This document shows, one piece after another, positions 39,068-51,754 of a stretch of DNA of 64,000 nt (positions are counted from its first letter, which is position 1; every line of letters starts with the position of its first letter). The notes below the pieces were generated by a model. It made no database searches and was not told the DNA's origin. It saw only the letters and a program-made list of their open reading frames with translations. Source of the stretch: Palleronia caenipelagi (lineage in GTDB: Bacteria > Pseudomonadota > Alphaproteobacteria > Rhodobacterales > Rhodobacteraceae); assembly GCF_007004065.1 (NCBI RefSeq), contig NZ_VFSV01000009.1, positions 62,001-126,000 on the forward strand, given 5' to 3'. Both the position numbers and the translations under genes were made by a program.

Positions 39068-39157
39068 GGAGAGGTGCCGGAGTGGTCGAACGGGGCGGTC
39101 TCGAAAACCGTTGTGGGTGCAAGCCCACCCAGGGTTCGAATCCCTGTCTCTCCGCCA
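39068..39157 (+). tRNA. tRNA-Ser (anticodon CGA)
   Basis: The 90-base sequence folds as a class II tRNA. The acceptor begins GGAGAGG and ends CTCTCCG with encoded CCA. The anticodon stem GCGGT/ACCGT encloses loop CTCGAAA with anticodon CGA; a long variable arm (GTGGG..CCCAC) and T-loop GTTCGAATC follow. It is nearly identical in plan to E. coli serU-type tRNA. It borders the integrase and is the likely prophage attachment site. Confidence 0.97.
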
Positions 39158-39337: not shown

Positions 39338-40542
39338 ATGAAGCCTATCATGCGCGGCAAGCTCTATTACATCCGGCGTCGGGTTCCCCGGCGATATGAG
39401 GGTGTGGAGAGCCGTCGGGATGTCTGGCTGTCCCTGAAAACGAGGCATGGGAATCGAGGCTGGCCGGTGACACTGCAGATTCGGAACGCCGGTTTGCCGC
39501 CGCGCGCCAGCTCGCGCAGGCCCGCGGTTATCGGTTTCTCAAGCCAACAGATGTCCGCAAGCTTCCCGATGATGAACTGCTGCGGCGCTTTGCGGACGCT
39601 ACTGATCCCAAAGCCAAGCCGCAGGATGGGGATGCGCTTCTCGGACTGAATGCCCCTCCCGTGACGCTGTCCCGCGCCCTGGAGCTCTACTGGCAGTTCG
39701 CCGAAGAGGACACGCTCGACAAGAGCGCCGATCAGGTGCGCCGCTGGCGCAACCCCCGCATCAAAGCGTTCCGCAACCTGATCTCCGTTGTCGGTGATCG
39801 CCCCCTGACCGATCTCACCCGTGAGGACATGCTGGCCTTCCGCGATTGGTGGATCGAACGGGTCAAATCAGGTCAGGTACAGAAGCAATCCGCGAATAAA
39901 GACTTCACCTATGTGTCGGCAGTCCTTCGGCGCGTGAACGATATGATGCGGCTGGGCCTTGATTTGCCGCTGGATCGCTTAGCGTTCCGCTCTGCTGAAA
40001 AGAACCGCAGGCCTGCGTTCTCGACCAGCTGGATCACAGACAGGATCTTGGCGCCGGGCGCGCTGGACGGCCTGAACCTCGAAGCCCGGTGTATCCTGCT
40101 CGGGATGGTAAACACCGGCTACCGGCTGGGCGAGGCCGAGGCCCTGACGCGCGATCAAATCCGGCTGGATCATGACGTCCCTCATATCTCGATCGAGCCG
40201 GTTGAGCGGCAGCTGAAAACCAGACATTCGGTTCGTATTGTCCCGCTGGCCGGTGTCAGCCTTGAAGCGTTCCGATCCTGCCCTGACGGCTTTCCAAGAT
40301 ACCGGCAGGGTGCTGGTGTCTCAAACCTGCTGACGAAGTATTTGCGGAACAACAAGTTGCTAGAAACACCGGAGCATTCGACCTACTCCCTGCGGCATAG
40401 TTTTGAGGACCGCTTGCTCGCCGCCGGAGTCGACAACCGGATCCGCTCGGATCTCATGGGGCATGCGTTCAGTCGGCAGAAGTATGGAGCGGGCGCGAGC
40501 ATTGAGCAGATGTTCGAAGCGATCAAATTGATCTCGTTATGA
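39338..40542 (+). pseudogene. Phage tyrosine integrase, disrupted by an internal deletion/frameshift
   Basis: The N-terminal frame from ATG 39338 reads MKPIMRGKLYYIRRRVPRRY through DVWLSLKT (to about 39441). The homologous continuation (EAWESRLAGDTADSERRFAA) is in a different frame, which is open from 39400 to 40542. Relatives have roughly 20 residues between LKT and EAWE, so a piece that is not a multiple of three seems lost. The catalytic part is complete: Arg in NTGYRLGEAEAL, TYSLRHSFEDRL, MGHAFSRQKY. A GTG at 39661 could give a C-terminal fragment without the arm-binding domain. Confidence 0.8.
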
Positions 40543-47259: not shown

Positions 47260-47573
47260 AACGTCAGAAGACCGCTCAGGAGATCCTCGCTGAACGTGTG
47301 CTCGTCGCTGTTTGTGGCCATCTTTGCCTCGAGACGATCCGCAATGAGAACTTCGTCATGTGGCTCGGTGTCCTTGAAAAGGTAGCCCCGCATTGTGCGC
47401 GGAGTGATGCAGCGCTCGCGCCACTCCGGTGCGCGGCCAATAACCTGCTGCGCGCACGCCCTGGAAAGGCACGCGATACCGCCCTGTGTCAGCTTCGGTT
47501 TCAGGTGGCTCACTACTTCGCCGCCATGGCTGCGAAGCGCCTCGAAGAATGGACTGGCGGAGGGCGGAGCTGA
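47256..47573 (+). CDS. Hypothetical phage protein (105 aa)
   Basis: The 105-residue product (MKRQKTAQEILAERVLVAVC...) is helical with several cysteines and no metal-binding pattern. It is coupled on both sides by ATGA and TGATG overlaps between the methyltransferase and primase genes. Confidence 0.55.
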   Translation: MKRQKTAQEILAERVLVAVCGHLCLETIRNENFVMWLGVLEKVAPHCARSDAALAPLRCAANNLLRARPGKARDTALCQLRFQVAHYFAAMAAKRLEEWTGGGRS

Positions 47574-48694
47574 TGACACACGCAGATGACCCCCGGCTTG
47601 TCGAGGCCAAGGCGATCCCCATGGCCAATGTGGTCGATCGTCTTGGCATCGTTGGGCTGAAGCGCCAGTCGGGGGAATTGATCGGGCCGTGTCCGCTCTG
47701 TGGCGGGCGGGATCGCTTCGGGATCAATCTGCGGACCGGTGCCTTCCTGTGCCGCAAATGCGACCTGCGCGGCGGCGATCAGATTGCCCTCGTGCGTGGT
47801 GTTCAGGGTGTGGACTTCAAAGCGGCGCTCACATGGCTTTGCGGGAATGCCCCGGCGGAGATCGATGAGGCCGAACGGGCCCGCCGTCGCCGCAAGGCCG
47901 CAGAGGCAGAACGAAAGCAGCGGGAAGCGCAGGAGCGCTACCGGCGCAAGGCGATCAGCGACGCGCGCACCATCTGGTCAAAGGCGAGGCCCGGTCATCT
48001 TGGGGTCGTTCGCGCCTACCTGCAGTCGCGCGGGTTCACGGAGCAGCTCTTGCCGGAGATCCCGACGGCTCTGCGATTCATCGTGGAACATCCCTATGTG
48101 AAGAAGATTGGCCGGGAGCTTGTGACCGTTCATCGGGGGCCGTGCATGATTGCCGGCATCCTCAATCCTGCGGGCGAGTTGACTGCCGTTCATCAGACAT
48201 GGGTCGATCGGGACCCGCCACATAGCAAGGCCCGCATCCAGTTCGAGGGCGAGGACATGCCCGCGAAGCTTGTACGCGGCTCGAAAAAGGCCGGCGCGAT
48301 CCGACTGTCGACCCCGCCCGGATCTGAGGCCCTCGTGATGGGCGAAGGGATTGAGACCACGCTGACCGCGATGGTCGTGGGTCATTACCCGAACGCAGCC
48401 TACTGGGCCGGTGTGGATCTTGGGAACATGGCCGGGCGCATGAAAAAGGTCGAGGGCCGCCGATACTCTGGCCTGCCGGATATGAGCGACCGGGACGCAT
48501 TTGTCCCGCCAGATTGGGTCAAGCGTCTTGTTTTCATCATGGATGGCGACAGCGATCCCGTCATGACCCGCGCGAAGCTCGACTGCGGATTGCGGCGCGC
48601 GATGGCCGTGCGTCCCGGATTGAAGGCTCAGATCATACACGCGGGTGCCGGTGTCGATCTGAACGATTTGCTGATGGGGAAAGCCGATGGATGA
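47573..48694 (+). CDS. Phage primase with zinc finger and Toprim domain
   Basis: The 373-residue protein has an N-terminal zinc ribbon (GPCPLCGGRDRFGI...FLCRKCD, about residues 36-62), a charged helical linker and a C-terminal Toprim-like domain (MGEGIETTLTAM and FIMDGDSDPVMTRAKL). It resembles the primase half of P4 alpha-type proteins and works with the helicase gene that overlaps its end. ATG 47573 overlaps the previous stop (TGATG); the longer open frame from 47486 is rejected. Confidence 0.85.
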   Translation: MTHADDPRLVEAKAIPMANVVDRLGIVGLKRQSGELIGPCPLCGGRDRFGINLRTGAFLCRKCDLRGGDQIALVRGVQGVDFKAALTWLCGNAPAEIDEAERARRRRKAAEAERKQREAQERYRRKAISDARTIWSKARPGHLGVVRAYLQSRGFTEQLLPEIPTALRFIVEHPYVKKIGRELVTVHRGPCMIAGILNPAGELTAVHQTWVDRDPPHSKARIQFEGEDMPAKLVRGSKKAGAIRLSTPPGSEALVMGEGIETTLTAMVVGHYPNAAYWAGVDLGNMAGRMKKVEGRRYSGLPDMSDRDAFVPPDWVKRLVFIMDGDSDPVMTRAKLDCGLRRAMAVRPGLKAQIIHAGAGVDLNDLLMGKADG

Positions 48695-50540
48695 TGATCT
48701 GGATCGCGTCCGGGCAACGTTCGAAGGCGCCGAAGATGTCGCGCCAGCAGAGGGATTTCCCAGCGATGCCCCCGGAGACACCGGAGGCAATGATGGCGCG
48801 CCGCCCCGCACCCCTGATCTGCCCATGCCGGAAATGGATGGGGCTAAGCTGACGCAGAACGATACCGGCAATGCCCTGCGCTTCGCGCTCTATTGCGGCG
48901 CTGATGTGCTCTACGTGCCGCGCGTTGGCTGGCATGTCTGGGACGGCCGGCGGTGGAAGCTTGATCCGGATGGAATCGCGGTCCGACGGCATGCTCAGAC
49001 GATCCATGAGTGGATCGAAAAGGAAATCCTGCACGTTCAGCTCAGTTCATCTGAGCAGGCCCGGGTCGATCGTCTGGAGGCCATCAAGAATGAATTGGTC
49101 GATTTCGACAGGATACATGCCGCGCGATCCGAAGATGAACGCTCGGAGAAGCGGAAAGACCTGTTGTCGGAGCGCGACAAGCTGACCGCAGAACTCTGGG
49201 GGCGCGGCTCGACCCGACAGCGACACAAGACGTTTGCGCGGTCGTCGGGCAACACCAACGCGATCAAGAACATGTTGTCAGAGGCGGTGACCAGCCTAAG
49301 CAAGGATGTCGAAGATCTCGATGCCGACCCTTTGACCGTGAACACCATGTCGGGCGTGTTGCGGTTCAAGGTGACCGATATGCGCGCCGACGGCGCGGGC
49401 AAGGTCGCGGAGGTCGATCTCCTGCCGCATGATCGCGAGATCCCCATTGGATCTGCGAACCGGTCTCAGTTCATCACAAAAATGATGCCAGTCGAGTATG
49501 ACCCATCGGCGGAGTGCCCAAAGTTCCTGGCCTTCCTCGAGCGTGTTCTGCCAGATCCGGCGGAGCGGGCTTTTGTCCAGCGGTGGTTCGGGCTCAGCAT
49601 GACCGCACTGCCGGTCCAGAAGTTCCTGTATTGCTACGGCATGGGCGCCAACGGGAAGTCGCTCTTGACCGGCCTGATGCGTCGGATGCTGGGCGATTAC
49701 GCCACGATGGTCCGGATCGAGAGCCTGACCGGCAAGAACCGCAAATCGGGTTCTGACGCGACGCCAGACCTGATGCGTCTGATCGGTGCCCGCGCTGCGA
49801 TCACGAATGAGCCGGAGGAAGGCGAACGCCTTCAGGAGCAGAAGGTGAAGGAAATGACCGGCGGCGATGAGATGCTGGTCCGCAACCTGCACTCCGACTT
49901 CGTGGCCTTCACGCCTTATTTCAAGCTGACCTTCACCGGGAACCACAAGCTCGATATCCGTGGCACGGATGACGGCATCTGGCGGCGCCCGATGCTGCTG
50001 TTCTTCGGTGTCCAGATCCCCGAATCCGAGCGCGATGAAAAGCTGGGGGACACCCTCTTCGAGGAAGAGCGTTCTGGCATCCTGAACTGGATGATCGATG
50101 GGTTGCTCGACTATCTGGAGCGCGGCTTACAGGAGCCGCTGTCCGTTCAGGAAGCGACCGAGGACTACCGCCGGGACAGCGATCCCGTTGGAGACTTCCT
50201 CGCGACCGCTTGCGAGATCGATGGCGGCTCCGACTTCCTGTCGGCCCGCGATCTGGTCGATGCGTGCTACCTGTATCTGCTCGAGAACACCGCACATGCC
50301 TGGCAGCCGGGCAACCTGCAGCGCAAGCTGAAGGAACGCTCGGGGAAATACGCCCATCCCATCACCGGCAAGACTTACACGCGCCACAAGCGCAACGGCA
50401 CCTGGGGATATTCCGGCGTGCGATTGACCGATACCATGCGAGACCGCCTCGATGACGCGCCCCGCGATGCCAAGGGCCTGCCGCAGCTCCGAAAGGAGAG
50501 CGGCGGTTACTCCCCGTCTGGTGGATCCGACCCACTATGA
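48687..50540 (+). CDS. Phage SF3 helicase / P4-family DNA primase (D5N, DUF5906)
   Basis: The 617-residue protein has a D5N-type region (about 210-300) and a superfamily 3 helicase with Walker A GMGANGKS (about residue 318), the acidic B motif AITNEPEEGERL and the sensor segment TFTGNHKLDIRGTDDGIWRR. It unwinds the phage origin during replication. It overlaps the primase gene by eight bases. The repeat-rich stretch after it may be its origin. Confidence 0.88.
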   Translation: MDDDLDRVRATFEGAEDVAPAEGFPSDAPGDTGGNDGAPPRTPDLPMPEMDGAKLTQNDTGNALRFALYCGADVLYVPRVGWHVWDGRRWKLDPDGIAVRRHAQTIHEWIEKEILHVQLSSSEQARVDRLEAIKNELVDFDRIHAARSEDERSEKRKDLLSERDKLTAELWGRGSTRQRHKTFARSSGNTNAIKNMLSEAVTSLSKDVEDLDADPLTVNTMSGVLRFKVTDMRADGAGKVAEVDLLPHDREIPIGSANRSQFITKMMPVEYDPSAECPKFLAFLERVLPDPAERAFVQRWFGLSMTALPVQKFLYCYGMGANGKSLLTGLMRRMLGDYATMVRIESLTGKNRKSGSDATPDLMRLIGARAAITNEPEEGERLQEQKVKEMTGGDEMLVRNLHSDFVAFTPYFKLTFTGNHKLDIRGTDDGIWRRPMLLFFGVQIPESERDEKLGDTLFEEERSGILNWMIDGLLDYLERGLQEPLSVQEATEDYRRDSDPVGDFLATACEIDGGSDFLSARDLVDACYLYLLENTAHAWQPGNLQRKLKERSGKYAHPITGKTYTRHKRNGTWGYSGVRLTDTMRDRLDDAPRDAKGLPQLRKESGGYSPSGGSDPL

Positions 50541-51007
50541 CGCGCAGGGCGGCATATCCCAGCGCTTCAGCCGCCCGCACCCCGCACCCCATCACCCAAA
50601 TCCGAGATAATCCGGGGCAGATCGTCCAGTTCTGCCCCGGATCGGGGCGCGTTCTTTCGTTAGCGGCCATCTCGATAATCCCGTTCGTTCGGAGGATTAG
50701 ACATAAATCGGGGCGCACGGGGCGCTTGGGGCAGAAATCTGCAAGGTACGCACGTGCGCGACCCTTCCGGGGTCTGGGGGTCGGTAGTCTTGCGCATAGG
50801 TCAGATATTTGCGCCCTATCTGCCCCGCGTGCCCCGCCACCATGTTTCCCGCCTTTCTTTCATAGGGTTACGGCTGCGTACTTCTCGGACGGGTTCTGCC
50901 CCATCATGCGCAGTTCTGCCCCCCCTGCCCCGCATCACTCCCCCCTAAAACAACATCTTGCCCCTCTCTCTTTCGAGGCAACAAAATCAAGTAAATCGAG
51001 GTCAGGT
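50541..51007. other. Repeat-rich non-coding stretch, candidate replication origin
   Basis: This 467-base region contains six exact copies of TCTGCCCC or its complement (50614, 50631, 50728, 50819, 50895, 50915), the last two exactly 20 bases apart. The first two form the arms of a perfect 12-base hairpin, ATCCGGGGCAGA and TCTGCCCCGGAT (50610-50642). A further TCTTGCCCC is at 50955. An open frame crosses it but reads as R/S/P-rich low-quality protein. It directly follows the helicase gene. Confidence 0.6.
50610..50642. other. 12-base perfect hairpin in the candidate origin
   Basis: The stem ATCCGGGGCAGA/TCTGCCCCGGAT encloses a nine-base loop. There is no T-run on either side, so it is not a standard terminator. 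It lies 70 bases after the helicase stop. Confidence 0.7.
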
Positions 51008-51754
51008 ATGAGCACCAAAATTCAGAAAGCGCGCGAAACGAGCTGGGCTGAAGAGGCAATCGAGGCCGAACGGGTGAAGCCACCAGAGCGGTTTCGGTAT
51101 GGAAGTGACGAAGCGGCTCGGATCGATGCTGTTCGGCATGCCGCCCGCAATCCGAAGTCATGCAGCCGCGAGATACCGGTCGCACCGGCGCGCGGTCCGG
51201 TCGCGGAGTTCCGTGAGACTGTCAGTCTGCCGAAGGGCGATGGCTTTCAACTGGCTGAGGCACCCTATCGCGCCGGGTGCCCCGGACGGGTGCGCGATGT
51301 CTTCGACATCATGACTGAACAAGCGATGCGGCGGCGTGGTGGTCGTGCGCCCTTCACTGCGGGTCAGGTTCAGATCGCGCGGGACTATAGGGCTCTCTTT
51401 GAGCGGGTGCAGAGCGCAGGAATGAAGTGCTCAGCTGACCTGAACGCGGTGCGGGGTGGCGATGGTGGCCGCGACTTCATGGACGTGTTCATCGCGGATT
51501 CGGAGCGGCTCAGGCGTCTCCAACGGGCCATCGGTGCGGGTGATGCTCTGGCGCCCCGGCGGGATGGAGCGCACAACATGGATCGCGGGACGCGGCGTTC
51601 TATCACGGATGCCCGTCTTGTAGAAATGGTGTGCGTTGGGCAAGAGCCGCTGAGCGCCGTTCTAAGGGCCCATGGCTGGGCTTTGGCCGGAAAAAACAGA
51701 AAGTGCCTGCACGACGCCCTGTGCGCCAGTCTGGAGCGTATGCGGTGCGGCTAA
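51008..51754 (+). CDS. Hypothetical phage protein, candidate late regulator
   Basis: ATG 51008 follows GAGGTCAG and gives 248 residues. The C-terminal part (SITDARLVEMVCVGQEPLSA, then VLRAHGWALAGKNRKCL) looks like a helix-turn-helix; the middle has AGQVQIARDYRALFERV. I recognise no family. It stands just before a promoter-like stretch, a terminator and the late genes, the place of antiterminator Q in lambda. The frame is open back to ATG 50537 (ATGA overlap with the helicase) but that part looks non-coding. Confidence 0.55.
   Translation: MSTKIQKARETSWAEEAIEAERVKPPERFRYGSDEAARIDAVRHAARNPKSCSREIPVAPARGPVAEFRETVSLPKGDGFQLAEAPYRAGCPGRVRDVFDIMTEQAMRRRGGRAPFTAGQVQIARDYRALFERVQSAGMKCSADLNAVRGGDGGRDFMDVFIADSERLRRLQRAIGAGDALAPRRDGAHNMDRGTRRSITDARLVEMVCVGQEPLSAVLRAHGWALAGKNRKCLHDALCASLERMRCG

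Follow-up and report, generated by a model that had tools for sequence, protein, structure and literature searches.

What occupies the gap of about 470 bp that separates the stop codon of a prophage helicase gene from the next plausible start codon, at 51008? The gap lies in the window, i.e., the whole 64,000-nucleotide stretch of DNA analysed here. An earlier note had reported six exact copies of an 8-mer, in both orientations, within a span of about 310 bases there, and proposed a phage replication origin. The copies belong to a larger element, a dyad of 9 bp units whose spacing is kept among related phages while its letters change. Three sequence tests support a candidate phage origin: close relatives have an array in the corresponding position, it is not a feature of the host genome at large, and its repeat class varies in step with the helicase's C-terminal domain. 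No paper on this array was found among the matches listed in the literature, as judged by title and start of abstract, with subscription journals mostly outside reach. RcapNL, whose array is described below, is named in a paper on R. capsulatus phages (PMC8601537); the phrase "origin of replication" is absent from the main text of that paper.

The Helicase Gene and Its Surroundings

The window carries a prophage, in which a tRNA-Ser gene (39068–39157) and an integrase gene (39661–40542) are followed by the replication module. Judging by the named relatives, its host belongs to the Rhodobacteraceae. The same helicase, 100% identical, is encoded on the 36,071 bp IMG/VR contig IMGVR_UViG_2886615457_000006, whose coordinates would put its first base at window base 39661; judging from its extent, the prophage probably continues beyond the window end. 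A blastn comparison of a 1 kb stretch of the window with 50,697 phages gave no match.

Primase and helicase are separate genes (Table 1), and a P4-like fusion is absent. The earlier note was right that the array directly follows the helicase gene, but its label for the helicase, P4-type, is loose because the protein belongs to the D5_N family and the primase has its own gene. The frame of the gene downstream of the array is open back to 50537, across the array. Relatives do not keep this openness, and a gene at 50537–51754 that spans the array was rejected for that reason. In Paracoccus phage Pthi1 (L085, 12578–13058), two small hypothetical genes are annotated over the origin-like array; they are probably spurious, like the open frame in the window.

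Table 1. Features of the replication module and the array, in window coordinates.
Feature	Position	Strand	Basis
Primase-like gene (zinc ribbon, DUF7146), helicase partner	47486..48694	+	PHROG 510 DNA primase, 7.8e-80; Pfam DUF7146, Zn_Ribbon_Prim
D5_N / SF3-type helicase, 617 aa, proposed initiator	48687..50540	+	PHROG 1156, 1.1e-118; Pfam D5_N 4.2e-21, DUF5906 4.3e-8; AlphaFold model
C-terminal winged helix, residues 500–590, proposed repeat reader	50184..50456	+	Model secondary structure; weak fold matches; covariation with repeat class
Constant box CCCCGCACCCC	50580..50590	+	Invariant in 11-locus alignment, unchanged where repeats differ
T1	50610..50650	.	Reverse units 50614–50621, 50644–50650; inverted unit 50631–50638 makes 12 bp hairpin (50610–50642)
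T2, three reverse units, 9 bp period	50709..50735	-	GGGGC at 50710, 50719, 50728
Core between halves; imperfect inverted arms, G-box GGGGTCTGGGGG at 50769–50780	50736..50809	.	Alignment
T3, three forward units, 9 bp period	50810..50836	+	GCCC at 50813, 50822, 50831
T4, forward units at 50895, 50915, 50925	50895..50931	+	GCCC at 50898, 50918, 50927; T3 67 bp away, then 20, 9
Next gene, no family assigned	51008..51754	+	ORF list; PHROG and Pfam searches

Repeat Units in the Window

All six exact copies of TCTGCCCC were recovered, as follows: 50614–50621 (-), 50631–50638 (+), 50728–50735 (-), 50819–50826 (+), 50895–50902 (+), and 50915–50922 (+). They span 309 bp directly after the helicase gene. 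The sharing of the 9-mer TTCTGCCCC by four of the six, and the exact 20-base distance from 50895 to 50915, were also as claimed. Two copies form a perfect hairpin with 12-base arms (50610–50621 and 50631–50642) and a loop of 9 bases.

Degenerate units, GCGCCCC and GTGCCCC, which the earlier note overlooked, complete triplets of 9 bp spacing. The larger element is a dyad of 9 bp units in which two reverse triplets (T1 and T2) and two forward ones (T3 and T4) flank a core of about 75 bp, and it extends from 74 to 391 bp past the helicase stop codon. In the window, T2, T3, and T4 are full. T1 has two same-strand units and one inverted unit; of its three same-strand sites, those 66 and 96 bp upstream of T2 hold a unit and the one between them does not. 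The hairpin results from the inverted unit and is a local variant of the triplet. It is not general among relatives, and it was rejected as the key element.

The core lacks AT enrichment: the AT fraction, over the 55 close loci defined below, is 0.36–0.42 in central bins and rises up to 0.53 in the 30 bp adjoining T3. A G motif, GGGGn2-4GGGG, occurs in 33 of 57 cores in one orientation only, the reverse orientation being found in 0 of 57. This motif and the CCCCGCACCCC box are constant across repeat classes, and they break the dyad symmetry. Between T4 and the next start codon, at about 50949–50990, are AT-rich elements resembling AATCAACATC and CAACAAAATATAG that are conserved in the alignment of close relatives. 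They are candidates for a promoter or a melting element.

Simple chance does not explain the array. TCTGCCCC is present at 3.56 copies per 64 kb in dinucleotide shuffles. In the 4.02 Mb host genome it is somewhat common, with 254 copies on both strands vs. 114 for a reversed-letter control. Shuffles and host genome each give about 0.02 copies per 309 bp, so that the earlier note's chance estimate of about 0.02 holds. The inner double-triplet pattern has one match in the window and none in any of 100 shuffles, and the left triplet pattern of the inner pair has a single occurrence in the host genome. The repeat is not equally frequent across the host genome, and the array is no general host feature. 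Chance was rejected on these shuffles, the host frequency, and the multi-locus test described below.

Relatives Keep the Place and Change the Letters

Relatives of the helicase were gathered from GTDB contigs, IMG/VR, other genomes, and GenBank phages. At least four copies of TCTGCCCC are found in 18 of 71 loci (duplicate records included), all with helicases that are 71–76% or 100% identical to that of the window. L002 and L044, which are duplicates of each other with 73% helicase identity, have one copy. L028 (72%) and L029 (62%) have none, and carry a different repeat at the same positions. The expectation that related prophages would have an array in the same place is borne out, with letters that vary as follows: GGCCC in L028 and L029, AACCC in L006, AGGCCC in Pthi1, GTCCC in RcapNL, CCTCCC in Pan4, and others too. 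When 11 close loci are aligned, the invariant columns are mainly the unit cores, GGGC/GCCC, and a few constant boxes.

The inner pattern of the window class was found in 10 stretches of a viral contig collection. Nine of these, including near-copies of one another, are found 3′ of this helicase at a distance of no more than about 0.5 kb, and the tenth is a collagen-like repeat.

In Pthi1, Pan4, and AmM-1, the array follows the helicase gene and lies inside the record. In RcapNL, it falls within the final 320 bp of the annotated genome, the end of which has a cohesive overhang. Helicases 43–44% identical to this Rhodobacteraceae-type one are encoded by phages labelled cyanobacterial, including Pseudanabaena phage Pan4 and Nostoc phage Nsp-JY21 (the pair L086 and L087). 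Both have a CCTCCC array and an integrase, and Pan4 has GTA-like genes. Such phages may have been given mistaken host labels, or heterotrophs in the cultures may be their true source.

A Fixed Geometry

The geometry was examined in 125 non-redundant loci out of 159 with the helicase; loci were dropped if fewer than 400 bp followed the helicase gene or if the downstream DNA was close to that of a kept locus. Exact 6-mer self-matches at a lag of 9 number 1058 vs. 30.5 in shuffles, and every other lag from 4 to 30 gives at most 216. An inner-pair search looked for a reverse and a forward triplet of one 9-mer, 55–135 bp apart, with the best of 125 shuffles, one per locus, as the limit. In 86 of the 125 loci the inner triplet pair scores above every shuffle. 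By helicase, an array was called in 57 of 64 close loci, 26 of 37 intermediate loci, and 3 of 24 distant loci, the last three being near the shuffle limit and not claimed. A locus counts as "close" when its helicase scores above 450 bits against the best-matching of seven seeds. Since seeds match themselves, the 57 of 64 include L091 and L009, which were dropped before the geometry and covariation tests because their called arrays looked different from the others. The 55 close loci that are left comprise 39 from IMG/VR, 8 other genomes, 4 named phages, and 4 GTDB contigs.

A 9-mer learnt from T2 and T3 only finds more same-strand units 67, 87/88, and 96/97 bp out, mirrored on both sides. In the 55 close loci, the best outer triplet is at 66–68 bp on 58 of 92 testable sides, with 3.4 expected. 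A mean of 3.82 of the six outer sites are filled vs. 0.18–1.75 at four control offsets; the controls are conservative, as some of the offsets overlap real sites. At least 10 of the 12 predicted sites are filled in 35 of the 55. The general layout is: T1 (9, 20–22), 67, T2 (9, 9), core, T3 (9, 9), 67, T4 (20–22, 9).

Same-strand distances of 9, 11, 20, 67, and 76 are common among more distant loci. By eye, L148, L159, and similar loci, with ACCCTCG-type repeats, seemingly have units arranged 3 + 2 and 2 + 3 about the centre, with internal spacings of 9 and 11 bp and, once more, the 67 bp distance. The distant helicases seem to go with a second geometry of 5 + 5 units, about one helical turn tighter.

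The C-Terminal Domain of the Helicase

The AlphaFold model of the helicase has a mean pLDDT of 87.5, and its C-terminal end is modelled as a winged helix. The predicted elements are helices 500–507, 520–534, and 541–551 and wing strands 565–569 and 572–576. The third helix, residues 541–551, is encoded at 50307–50339. Folded alone, the domain has a pLDDT of 89.3. Its best fold matches, which are weak (E 0.03–0.06), are AsfvPrimPol and the RFX winged helix, and its sequence has no match in the PDB. The helicase itself matches the fold of AsfvPrimPol, which we take to be D5-type, with an E of 2.1e-24.

Repeat Class Follows the Helicase Tail

Repeat class was defined as the base, or the two bases, before the C run. 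Labels were assigned mechanically, except in one analysis with hand classes. The main set has 54 loci, L143 being left out of the 55, and the permutations and sign tests used below ignore relatedness. On the helicase-core tree, the class changes repeatedly: at least 18 changes are required for ten labels, vs. a shuffled mean of 27.6.

Which protein predicts the class? A primase was found for 42 of the 55 loci, or 41 of 54 without L143. Among these 41, with close relatives allowed, the nearest neighbour in the C-terminal domain gives the right class for 39, the core for 34, and the primase for 20, with about 19 expected by chance. The primase was rejected as the repeat reader on this result. 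When neighbours with a core identity of at least 0.60 are excluded, the values are 30, 20, and 10.

Across all 54 loci with the same exclusion, the one-base class is predicted correctly for 39 by the C-terminal domain, 46 by the wing, 33 by helices 520–551, 29 by the whole core, and 30–36 by core segments, against about 27 in shuffles. For the two-base class, the domain gives 20, the core 12, and shuffles about 15. The signal is strongest in the wing segment, 552–585, and helices 520–551 do no better than core segments.

In six head-to-head settings, the loci for which the C-terminal domain alone or the core alone is right number 9/2, 9/3, 13/3, 13/5, 20/12, and 16/4 (p = 0.065, 0.15, 0.021, 0.096, 0.22, and 0.012, respectively). 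All six favour the C-terminal domain, and p is below 0.05 in two; before removal of L143, it was below 0.05 in three. The edge of the domain over the helicase core is modest. Its end of the gene adjoins the array, so that linkage can add to the correlation.

Similarity within classes points the same way at intermediate divergence. At a core identity of 0.45–0.60, the C-terminal domain is more alike within classes by 0.024 under both labels, a value reached by 0 and 1 of 300 permutations, vs. -0.008 to +0.009 for the other helicase segments. Above 0.60, the domain's value is +0.060 to +0.087, and segments 55–265 also rise, by 0.014–0.038. At 0.30–0.45, the domain's values of 0.003–0.007 are exceeded by other segments, and there is no domain-specific effect. 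Hand classes (48 loci), assigned after repeats and protein tails had been viewed together and including L107 and L130 although these are below the shuffle limit, give +0.050 and +0.083 for the domain. With these classes, L028 and L110 (a duplicate of L029) are the odd pair in the window clade, at rank 1 of 66.

Discordant phages show the association case by case. L047, L135, L100, and L030 have cores nearest to TCCC-class phages and C-terminal domains nearest to [AG]GCCC phages, and their repeats are [AG]GCCC or GGGCC. L129 is discordant in the reverse sense. On the core tree, L030 is grouped with the window clade. An exception is L028, the repeat of which is GG-type, yet its C-terminal domain is still nearest to that of TCTGCCCC phages.

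Finer measures give a mixed picture. A crude similarity of the 9-mers has no useful correlation with the helicase: rho is 0.03 for the core, 0.02 for the C-terminal domain, and 0.00 for the region of the third helix. In 25-residue windows, its highest values, 0.21–0.22, are at 385–409 and 490–514, outside the winged helix. Mutual information between single columns and the base preceding the C run (ten rows dropped, L107 added) has a median z of 3.02 for the C-terminal domain vs. 1.62, with the top two columns outside the domain and clades confounding the measure.

Proposed Mechanism and Alternatives

We consider it probable that the array is a phage origin of the SaPI/Cch2 kind, with iterons read by the winged helix at the C terminus of the neighbouring D5-type helicase and hexamers facing each other across the core. 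The proposed arrangement is as follows. About twelve 9 bp iterons would form the dyad, T1 and T2 in one orientation and T3 and T4 in the other, on either side of the ~75 bp core. The winged helix of the adjacent helicase would bind them, and binding by this domain would account for the match between each phage's repeat and its own helicase. The six winged helices of one hexamer may occupy the units of one side, one subunit per iteron, while a second hexamer takes the six mirror units. A double hexamer would suit the count of six sites on each side. The two rings would face each other across the core and depart both ways after melting, with primers made by the separate primase. In none of the four named phages does cumulative GC skew reach a minimum within 4 kb of the array, so that this measure lends no support to the proposed origin.

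The array might instead be an operator, through which a phage regulator or the helicase itself controls the downstream genes while replication starts elsewhere. It does precede the next gene, and the conserved AT-rich elements resembling AATCAACATC and CAACAAAATATAG precede that gene's start codon in close relatives. Weighing against this reading is a repeat class tied to the helicase's C-terminal domain rather than to the primase, and twelve dyad sites over about 300 bp with a fixed 67 bp spacing would be unusual for an operator. In the accessible parts of the published accounts, moreover, the origins of SaPIs, PICIs, and Cch2 elements occupy this same stretch, 3′ of the helicase gene. We regard an operator as unlikely. 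It is less likely still that the array is a cis site for partition or packaging, or an array for a host protein, placed near the helicase by linkage. The location near the genome end in RcapNL agrees with such a site, and the arrays inside the records of Pthi1, Pan4, and AmM-1 do not; binding by a host protein would leave unexplained why the repeat class varies from phage to phage in step with the helicase tail.

Highly improbable, finally, is action of the inverted triplets as RNA, i.e., as a large mRNA stem-loop, attenuator, or terminator. Pairing would not require the same-strand spacings of 9, 20–22, and 67 bp that are conserved here, and an Rfam search of 50300–51200 gave no match up to E 0.1; the RNA element was rejected on these two results. 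T2 and T3 are largely complementary and the hairpin at 50610–50642 is perfect, as an RNA structure could have it, but the hairpin is not general and no T run comes after it.

Returning to the origin, we offer a broader proposal, for which our confidence is clearly lower and which should be taken as tentative. In a large phage family, represented here by Rhodobacteraceae-type prophages, the four named phages, and many viral contigs, the origin may be a geometric template for two helicase hexamers, with twelve iterons, six to a side, one winged helix on each, and spacings fixed to about one base. The letters would switch repeatedly with the helicase tail, and more than 50 natural matched helicase-origin pairs would make up a readable recognition code. 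A fixed site geometry with a switching site sequence provides many natural test pairs for such a code and for the subunit-to-site count. Inverted 9 bp triplets just after a D5-type helicase gene are suggested as an origin finder in prophages. A further question is how some twelve scattered copies evolve in concert.

Comparison with Known Systems

The alpha protein of satellite phage P4 binds the type I iterons of ori and crr through a C-terminal winged-helix domain. The likeness is that of a phage helicase with a C-terminal winged helix, which is modelled here, with putative iteron binding. The P4 repeat differs in sequence from the one found here. P4 has primase and helicase fused, in the accessible part of the source (PMC7145576), and here they are two genes.

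Closer parallels are found in mobile islands. The Cch2 helicase of SCCmec, with D5_N and Primase_Cterm domains, is described in the accessible part of a report (PMC7581432) as having a C-terminal DNA-binding domain, with direct repeats downstream, and as forming hexamers and dodecamers. Shared with the present system are the helicase class, the C-terminal DNA-binding domain, predicted here, and repeats just downstream. As far as that part of the report goes, Cch2 has three 5-nt AAGTG iterons, whereas about twelve 9 bp units in a dyad are found here. Accessible text on SaPIs has the iterons of Rep just 3′ of its own gene, read by the C-terminal domain. The SaPI/PICI origins are like the array in lying directly 3′ of the helicase gene, in having two iteron sets that flank a central region, and in a C-terminal reader, which is putative here. 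They differ in that the array has 6 + 6 units, a 9 bp period, and a fixed 67 bp spacing, and occurs in phages and prophages. The PICI centre is described as AT-rich; the centre here is not.

The SV40 large T antigen and papillomavirus E1 are SF3 helicases that assemble as double hexamers at short inverted sites, of which SV40 has four. Origin recognition and double-hexamer loading by a self-loading helicase are known best for a few eukaryotic viruses. There are about twelve sites here, vs. four in SV40. In addition, SV40 and E1 bind with an N-terminal domain, according to the accessible text of the Cch2 report (PMC7581432), and the covarying winged helix here is C-terminal. For SaPIs and Cch2, helicase loading has so far only been sketched. 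The array resembles the SaPI Rep and Cch2 systems and is set apart from them by its GC-rich core and twelve-unit geometry.
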